Assembly: GCA_021158805.1 (NCBI GenBank)
Contig: JAGGTZ010000098.1
Coordinates: forward strand, 1-11,844
DNA: 11,844 bases
From: Thermoproteota archaeon
GTDB taxonomy: Archaea > Korarchaeota > Korarchaeia > Korarchaeales > Korarchaeaceae
Reading direction: 5' to 3'
The notes under the pieces were generated by a model. It did no database searches and was not told the origin of the DNA. It saw only the letters and a program-made list of their open reading frames with translations. A program made the translations under genes and the position numbers. This document shows, one piece after another, positions 256 through 10,199 of the stretch; within the stretch, counting starts at the first letter, position 1; each line of letters starts with the position of its first letter.

Positions 256-431
256 TTGCCGTTCCATTAGGAGATCTGCCCTGCAATCTTTTTATCGATC
301 CCTCAGCACTCTCAAAGTCCCCAGGCGTGGATCTATTGGGAAGATTATTCAAGTAAAGGGGTTACCATGTTTAGAGAAACTAAAGGAATTGTCGATATCC
401 AAGTAGACATGCCAAGCTAAGAGGAGAATGA

Positions 432-490
432 GACCTCAGTCCGCCCGTCATTCCTCATTATGTAGGATGAAGGAATTATCATCATCGGCC
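432..490 (-). ncRNA. Candidate box C/D guide sRNA, predicted to target 16S rRNA C1402 (E. coli numbering)
   Basis: All parts are read on the minus strand. Bases 490-487 (GGCC) and 435-432 (GGTC) can form a terminal stem with one G-U pair. Box C is ATGATGA (485-479, matching RUGAUGA) and box D is CTGA (439-436). A C'-like box ATGAGGA (458-452, one mismatch) lies exactly 12 nt before box D. The 12-nt D guide (451-440) reads ATGACGGGCGGA. Nine of its bases pair perfectly with CCGCCCGUC (1399-1407) of the universally conserved 16S decoding region, and 1408 pairs as A-U or G-U. The base adjacent to box D does not pair. The N+5 rule puts the methylated base at C1402, a position 2'-O-methylated in bacteria by RsmI. 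C-to-D length is 50 nt, typical of archaeal sRNAs. The D' box is poor (CTAC at best), so the first guide is uncertain. The RNA would act with L7Ae, Nop5 and fibrillarin. No transcript has been observed; the call is from sequence alone. Confidence 0.78.
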
Positions 491-510: not shown

Positions 511-525
511 CTTTTAATTATTTTA
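511..525 (-). promoter_or_regulatory. TATA-like box for the C/D sRNA
   Basis: On the minus strand this AT-rich tract reads TAAAATAATTAAAAG. The AATTAAAA core (519-512) is centred about 25 bp upstream of position 490, which is the first base of the sRNA terminal stem. The predicted transcription start therefore coincides with the predicted RNA 5' end, and this supports an independently transcribed sRNA gene. Confidence 0.55.
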
Positions 526-9119: not shown

Positions 9120-10199
9120 ATGAAGTTAAATATTGTTCCTCTACTGATACTGCTACTATTACCAACGGTAACGGTCTATTCAGCTGAGGAAAGAGCGCCT
9201 AAGGTTGCCTTACTCAGTAACCAAGCCGATATGAAGACTGCCCAGTTCATAGGACAGCTATTCAATCAGTCTAATGTTGAGTACACGATACTACCTCCTG
9301 ACTCGTTTGAGGATGCTTTAAGGCAGTATGAAGTGCTTATACTGCTAGGAGGACCGAGGGCCTATGATGGGATGGGCAACATAACCTCCAACTACATACC
9401 TCCTAAGAACGCGACAACCCTAATAAACGAGCCCAGGACATTCATAGTCTCGATATATGAGGGAAATAGGGAGATAATAGTCCTAGCTGGCCATACGAGG
9501 GTTGAAACTTTCGAGGCAGTTCCGTATTTCTTCAAAGACCTAATTAGAGTCACTAAACTATGGAGATGGGTCGGCTATCCGGTGGATTTCGATGAGAACT
9601 CTTCTGCTATATACTATGTACAGGAGTACTTCTATAACAAGGAGAAAGGGGAGTTCAAGAAGGGGAAAATAAGAAATGTTGTTACTCAAGTTAACGGTGT
9701 CGTATCCGTCAACGGCACAGATCTCTACAATGTAACTACAACTGACTCCTATATATACTTGGGAGTGAACTATACGACATTCACTGAACTATTACTGGAC
9801 GATCTTGGGAGACCTTACTCATGTGAGATGAAGAGATTTGTAGAAGACCGCCTGAACTCGACGGTGAACTGCCTCGAATATCGGAGAGCACAAGGCTACG
9901 TATTTGTTGCCATTAGGATGGAGGCAACTAACGATAGGGTCTATTGGAAGATAGAGAACAGGAGACTTAGAAGGACTTTGATATATCCTATTGGAACGAG
10001 GAACATAAAGGCGGACATGGTACTCAGGTACTTATTCAAATATCCGAGCTGGGAGTTGCAGGATGAGTTCGATATACGGTACATTAATCCAACAATTCCA
10101 TTCGGTGGACTAGTAATGAGGATACATAACATTATCATAGATGGGGATATAATAACAAAGGAAAAGATGGAACTAGTTTCCTTCAGGGGTAAGGGGTGA
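9120..10199 (+). CDS. Secreted sequon-rich protein; N-terminal domain paralogous to the 607-1110 product
   Basis: The product is 359 aa. Residues 1-21 are a signal peptide (MKLNIVPLLILLLLPTVTVY then SA). The first domain (about 27-145) repeats the motif order of the 607 gene product: SNQADM (33-38), ILLGGPRAYDG (74-84) and IIVLAGHTRVET (119-130). It is followed by a larger beta-rich domain (about 150-359) not present in the short paralogue. At least six N-x-S/T sequons (NIT, NAT, NGT, NVT, NYT, NST) suggest N-glycosylation outside the cell. There is no C-terminal anchor. Transcription is likely leaderless from a strong TATA box 27 bp upstream. The stop is 2 bases before the ATG of the heme O synthase gene, so the two are co-transcribed. 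The function is unknown; the link to heme synthesis allows a role in respiratory-complex assembly, but that is inference. Confidence 0.8.
   Translation: MKLNIVPLLILLLLPTVTVYSAEERAPKVALLSNQADMKTAQFIGQLFNQSNVEYTILPPDSFEDALRQYEVLILLGGPRAYDGMGNITSNYIPPKNATTLINEPRTFIVSIYEGNREIIVLAGHTRVETFEAVPYFFKDLIRVTKLWRWVGYPVDFDENSSAIYYVQEYFYNKEKGEFKKGKIRNVVTQVNGVVSVNGTDLYNVTTTDSYIYLGVNYTTFTELLLDDLGRPYSCEMKRFVEDRLNSTVNCLEYRRAQGYVFVAIRMEATNDRVYWKIENRRLRRTLIYPIGTRNIKADMVLRYLFKYPSWELQDEFDIRYINPTIPFGGLVMRIHNIIIDGDIITKEKMELVSFRGKG

Follow-up and report, generated by a model that had tools for sequence, protein, structure and literature searches.

Does the short gap between two open reading frames at one end of a korarchaeal contig encode a guide RNA for the decoding centre of the small ribosomal subunit, and if so, which nucleotides would it address? 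We investigated this question for a window of 11,844 nt, i.e. the whole stretch of DNA analysed here, for which a sequence-only reading had proposed a single-guide box C/D sRNA directed at C1402 of the 16S rRNA.

A box C/D sRNA gene on the minus strand

The candidate gene occupies positions 431..490 of the minus strand (about 57-60 nt from terminal stem to terminal stem, delimited by pattern, conservation and an alignment of 15 sequences). It is placed in a gap with a minus-strand ORF (3-224) on one side and a plus-strand gene with a likely ATG at 607 on the other. Read 5' to 3' on the minus strand, it consists of the 5' arm of the terminal stem (GGCC, 487..490, invariant in 15/15 aligned sequences), box C (ATGATGA, 479..485), a D' guide of 12 nt (467..478, with the core ATTCCTT invariant in 15/15), a degenerate D' box (CCTA, 463..466), box C' (ATGAGGA, 452..458), a D guide of 12 nt (440..451), box D (CTGA, 436..439) and the 3' arm of the stem (GGTC, 432..435); boxes and 3' arm are seen in the window as well as in the alignment. 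Boxes C and D follow the archaeal consensus RUGAUGA and CUGA exactly and are flanked by the terminal stem GGCC/GGTC. Within the internal pair box C' is good and the D' box differs from CTGA by two changes. All elements previously read from the DNA (box C, a C'-like box, a 12-nt guide, box D and a terminal stem, in this order) were recovered where they had been placed. A generic C/D pattern was found once in the window versus 0.004 times per shuffled window (order-1 Markov, 500 shuffles), while the single-strand fold energy of the sRNA was no better than that of shuffles (z -0.20). On the grounds of sequence comparison we regard it as confirmed that minus strand 490-431 carries a real box C/D sRNA gene.

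The TATA-like box that had been noticed upstream also held up: AATTAAAAG lies at 511..519 on the minus strand, some 25 nt ahead of the first base of the stem, and positions -26, -25 and -24 were A or T in 19/19 upstream regions aligned on the stem. These 19 regions were extracted from 21 sequences, leaving out G016 and G020, which were not caught by the pattern. A scan for bacterial-type promoters, whose models do not cover archaeal promoters, returned nothing at the sRNA start.

Some observations concern the neighbouring ORFs. The minus-strand ORF 3-224 is cut by the contig edge, and in the same-genus relative G013 (L022) its orthologue is adjoined by a second, 60% identical copy. ORFs 607-1110 and 9120-10199 share by eye a similar N-terminal motif (a leader resembling those of secreted proteins, SNQxDMxTA after it and LGG further on), and neither had a Pfam match.

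Two guides complementary to 16S rRNA

Because the genome bin of the window (1.46 Mb, 79% complete) yielded no 16S match, pairing was tested on the 16S rRNA of the close same-genus relative G013, with E. coli numbering set by anchor motifs; the bin gave no 23S match either. The D guide forms 10 Watson-Crick pairs with 16S 1399-1408 of G013, in register, and the N+5 rule points to C1402. Its runner-up sites scored 8.0 elsewhere on the 16S rRNA and at best 7.5 on the 23S locus of G013 (both strands). The previously claimed match to 1399-1407 plus 1408 with C1402 as the target is therefore borne out on the 16S rRNA of a relative, the same genome having provided none for this comparison. The proposal of a single guide was incomplete: while its C1402 guide is real, it overlooked the D' guide (478-467), which forms 10 Watson-Crick pairs with 16S 912-921 of G013 plus a G-U pair with 922 and places N+5 on A915. 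Runner-up sites of the D' guide scored 8.5 elsewhere on the 16S rRNA and 8.0 on the 23S locus. Shuffled guides equalled the D pairing score on the G013 16S rRNA in 2/1000 tries and the D' score in 4/1000, and complementarity ended at the edges of the guides. On the relative's 16S rRNA the locus thus has what is expected of archaeal C/D guides, namely a guide of about 10-12 nt adjoining box D or D', complementarity to rRNA and a paired N+5 nucleotide.

The D target CCGCCCGTC was present in 10/10 16S genes of the family whose sequence covered this region (G001, G006, G008, G009, G011, G012, G013, G019, G022 and G023). Pairing of the D' guide varied, G009 having 11 pairs plus G-U and G001, mismatched at 913, having 8 pairs plus G-U. 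The register of the D' guide is supported by G016, G020 and G025, since these have a canonical CTGA at the place of the window's CCTA. When 16S position 913 was compared with position 3 of the D' guide in the 12 genomes with both sequences, six showed a Watson-Crick pair (A913 with T in G009 and G011; G913 with C in G013, G019, G022 and G023), one a G-U wobble (G139) and five a mismatch (G001, G004, G006, G007 and G008), a distribution that is only suggestive of compensatory change between the two. The 16S matches in G003, G004, G007, G014, G016, G018, G069 and G139 (L045-L049, L123-L129) were broken or partial; several of them end near model position 828, which may reflect contig ends, introns or assembly breaks.

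Rfam families and modification machinery

A covariance-model search pointed to the expected kind of RNA, the best Rfam match of the window being the archaeal C/D family sR1 (RF01152; 26.8 bits, E 0.0016), although this score lies below the gathering cut-off of 45 and the window therefore does not count as an sR1 member. The second match, sR2 (RF01139; 24.6 bits), was likewise below its cut-off of 42. The window sRNA has the C/D architecture in common with sR1 and sR2, whereas the partner guides differ and the C1402 guide is found at the D' position in the loci that pass as sR1. Among 20 C1402-type loci run against Rfam, L238, L241 and L188 exceeded the sR1 cut-off at the guide, L134 and L157 that of sR2, and L197 those of sR3 and snoPyro_CD. 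In L238 and L241 the sR1-type C1402-guide sRNA is followed on its own strand, after 10 and 18 nt, by an sRNA over the sR60 cut-off, and each pair could possibly be a two-sRNA transcript.

In the window's genome a fibrillarin gene (300 bits) adjoins a Nop gene (234 bits), and two genes of the L7Ae family are present (family-level match), so that by family-level matches L7Ae, Nop5 and fibrillarin occur together in one genome. A model of the RsmI family scored over its cut-off in 0/61 archaeal genomes, with sub-threshold matches in seven, compared with 10/14 control genomes over the cut-off.

Conservation within Korarchaeota

We take the host to belong to Korarchaeota because, among named organisms, Korarchaeum and Methanodesulfokora carry the nearest relatives of a saccharopine-dehydrogenase-like protein encoded in the window. 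The exact string GACGGGCGGNCTGA was found in 23/150 genomes and its reversed control in 1/150. The matches comprised 14/16 genomes of the genus (window's genome included), 4/8 of the rest of the family and five outside the phylum (G036, G053, G109, G118 and G127), among which G127 had no C/D boxes in the context examined and G053 is doubtful. For a broader search we used R1, a sequence-only model built from 15 of 17 pattern-found sequences; as near-duplicates of G001 and G007, the sequences of G008 and G015 were not used, and those of G016, G017, G018, G020 and G025 either did not fit the pattern or were not among the sequences then collected. At E<=0.01 it matched 45/150 genomes, i.e. 22/29 of the phylum and 23/121 outside it, the latter mostly weakly. 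The comparison in related genomes that had been suggested as a check thus recovered the gene in 14/16 genomes of the genus (again including the window's own), 7/8 others of the family and, at class level, G025.

The alignment has sharp edges, with stem, boxes and guides conserved and spacer and flanks not. In G016, G017, G020 and G025 (family and class level) the D guide is spelt GATGGGCGG and the D' guide AATTCCTTCA, and box D is CCGA in G016 and G020. G018 was matched by its 3' half only, keeping the D-guide half, and no AATTCCTT guide was seen there. Outside the phylum, G139 shares the D' guide core, and its D guide has a single mismatch, at 1404, when paired with the 16S rRNA of that genome. 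Seven genomes of the phylum had no match at E<=0.01 (G005, G012, G021, G024, G026, G027 and G028); G005 is 63% complete, and G012, which belongs to the same genus and has the standard target in its own 16S rRNA, is 99% complete, so that the sRNA gene is not universal in the phylum.

C1402-type guides across archaea

A C/D-type pattern around a C1402 guide had an exact match in 149/394 archaeal genomes and 88/252 genera, with zero matches to the reversed control among the matches listed, which suggests that predicted C1402 guides are widespread in archaea. As a count separate from that of the 149 genomes, at least 149 distinct sequences with a wider C1402-guide pattern were present among the loci examined. 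By loose tests, the 149 sequences among the matches listed divided into 106 with an upstream box C only, 29 with a downstream C'-D only, three with both and 11 with neither. Since some have the upstream box C and others the downstream C'-D, the candidate guide is employed in the D as well as the D' position, with various partners. Its spellings among the matches listed were GATGGGCGA (98 of the 149), GATGGGCGG (18), GACGGGCGG (12), GACGGGCGA (10) and others (11). Also among the matches listed, 124/149 sequences have a U opposite G1405 if the 16S rRNA is standard, and 11/149 an A opposite C1404 (GATAGGCGG in six, GACAGGCGG in three and GATAGGCGA in two), which is a mismatch if the 16S rRNA is standard. 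The wobble at G1405 is kept across lineages though a Watson-Crick C is one step away, and possibly it eases release. In G128 the organism's own 16S rRNA has A1405 and the guide U, giving a Watson-Crick pair.

We also counted how often the partner of the C1402 guide targets 16S rRNA. When long flanks were compared with 20 pooled 16S genes, 227 segments had at least nine pairs versus 222 in the reversed control, and we discarded this analysis because it was not informative. A test with a smaller scope (one reference 16S, 157 candidates, at least eight pairs) placed 19 candidates in the bin at about E. coli 911-925, whereas no bin of the reversed control held more than six. As 14 of the 19 came from the window's own phylum, we do not claim a general rule for the partner of the C1402 guide. 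G114 carries a C1402-type guide upstream, and its downstream guide forms 13 pairs with the reference 16S rRNA of G109 at about 908-920; a 16S gene of G114 itself was not found. At L096 (G119) and L101 (G079) we observed a second C/D-like sRNA in which a AATTCCTTTAG guide (16S A915 region) is paired with the guide GAGTACTCCCCAGG, the latter looking by eye antisense to 16S near 884-895. Both genomes also carry a C1402-guide sRNA (L091 and L099), and after it comes a guide with TCCTTTAAGT.

Relation to known modifications and guides

The sequence-only reading had presented an RNA-guided C1402 mark as new convergence with bacteria. This does not hold, as the equivalent nucleotide is guided by C/D snoRNAs in eukaryotes (U43, snR70 and SNORD43; PMC11542601, PMC9045821, PMC7114786). 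In Table 2 of PMC11542601, yeast Cm1639, human Cm1703, Arabidopsis Cm1645 and P. abyssi Cm1369 share the row of E. coli Cm1402, P. abyssi Cm1369 being listed as the archaeal equivalent. Arabidopsis 18S Cm1645 is guided by U43 (PMC11542601), yeast Cm1639, located in the P site (PMC9045821, PMC8307265), by snR70 (PMC9045821), and human 18S C1703 is assigned to SNORD43 (PMC7114786, PMC12288042). Although eukaryotic, snR70, SNORD43 and U43 resemble the window sRNA in being C/D guide RNAs and in their target, since its D guide, too, places N+5 on the C1402 equivalent. In bacteria both RsmI and RsmH are named for 2'-O-methylation of C1402 (PMC11542601); they share the 16S nucleotide with the window's RNA guide but are stand-alone proteins, and Table 1 of the same article already puts them beside the snoRNP route. 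The window gene is therefore of a known kind, the C1402 equivalent being already RNA-guided in eukaryotes.

Less ordinary is the combination of a C1402 guide with an A915 guide, which together bracket helix 28. Here the closest likeness is sR17 of N. equitans, a dual-guide C/D sRNA that pairs with opposite strands of helix 28 and for which Dennis et al. proposed a chaperone model (PMC4644070). Like the window sRNA it has one guide to each strand; unlike it, sR17 targets A915 and U1370/U1371 in the alignment numbering of that article, not C1402, and from the offsets given there we infer that its targets lie near E. coli 932 and 1384. In the accessible text of this seven-species archaeal survey, predictions for helix 44 are relatively sparse (PMC4644070); that of PMC7994747 states that no position was uniformly present in seven species, and in that of PMC3608112 the number 1402 does not occur. 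Our literature search, which most subscription journals lay beyond, returned no description of a Korarchaeota C/D sRNA or of the C1402/A915 pairing.

Proposed function and alternative explanations

Very probably the locus is a bona fide two-guide archaeal box C/D sRNA gene with its own TATA-type promoter, whose D guide would direct methylation of C1402 and whose D' guide would direct that of A915 if the weak D' box works. Transcription would proceed leftward from this promoter and yield an RNA of about 57-60 nt, to which L7Ae would bind at the C/D and C'/D' motifs and then recruit Nop5 and fibrillarin. With the D guide on 16S 1399-1408, fibrillarin would methylate the 2'-OH of C1402; with the D' guide on 912-921, A915 would be methylated provided that the weak D' box is functional. 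In the 16S structure the strands 912-921 and 1399-1408 leave the same end of helix 28, and since they lie together there, the RNP bound to both probably also holds them during 16S folding, thereby bracketing the helix. Methylation of C1402 by a dual-guide C/D sRNA is our best reading of the boxes, guides, complementarity to the relative's 16S rRNA, conservation, promoter-like box and machinery genes; methylation of A915 we consider probable and grade below it.

The same evidence could be read with the emphasis reversed, namely that the sRNA serves mainly 16S folding, its guides clamping the strands by helix 28, and that one or both methylations are a by-product or do not occur at all. The two guide sites are about 490 nt apart in sequence and yet on either side of helix 28, they occur together in 15 aligned sequences, the window's D' box is degenerate, and just this role was proposed by Dennis et al. 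for N. equitans sR17 (PMC4644070). We nevertheless hold this to be rather unlikely, as box D, the register of the guides and the N+5 base have all been kept in the form that methylation needs, G016, G020 and G025 have canonical D' boxes, and bacteria, eukaryotes and P. abyssi are all listed with a methylated equivalent nucleotide (PMC11542601).

Two further explanations deny the locus the role of a guide RNA gene. With its exact antisense match to 1399-1408, the D guide could simply represent a very conserved part of the 16S sequence in reverse complement, as an antisense 16S rDNA fragment or a chance match; yet its complementarity stops at the guide edges, it is flanked in order, in relatives too, by boxes C, C' and D and a second, separate 16S complement, and the C/D-type pattern recurs in 149/394 genomes with none for the reversed control among the matches listed, which reduces this explanation to a negligible chance. 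Alternatively the RNA could act in cis on the divergent gene 607-1110, as its leader or as a regulatory RNA; a homologue of the encoded protein is near the sRNA in 14/14 same-genus loci. The sRNA lies outside the leader of that gene, however, because the two are on opposite strands, and it is kept in G016, G017, G019, G020, G022 and G023, in whose flanks (up to about 1.5 kb) the neighbour's homologue is absent at E<=1e-3; G025 has one weak match (28% identity, E 4e-4). Since these other family loci retain the sRNA without a homologue of the neighbour in those flanks, we take the sRNA not to depend on this neighbour and a leader function to be very unlikely.

Beyond the preferred reading of a two-guide methylation sRNA, a bolder version may be entertained tentatively, and we are more inclined to doubt than to accept it. 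It would make the sRNA a phylum-wide two-site clamp, in which a single RNP reads 912-921 and 1399-1408 simultaneously, and the closing of helix 28 and of the central pseudoknot would be both linked to and timed by the methylation of C1402 and A915. In this version the C1402 guide itself would be an ancient element of archaea and eukaryotes, retained while lineages exchanged its partner guide.

Implications for Korarchaeota and other archaea

With this locus a predicted RNA guide for C1402 is now placed in the little-studied archaeal phylum Korarchaeota. If the guides work, many archaea, like eukaryotes, would place the C1402 mark of the decoding centre by means of guide RNAs, and bacteria by means of proteins. 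In the korarchaeal gene, moreover, a single sRNA that is conserved among relatives addresses the two sides of helix 28, and therefore the chaperone idea put forward in PMC4644070 may become testable by lineage comparison.
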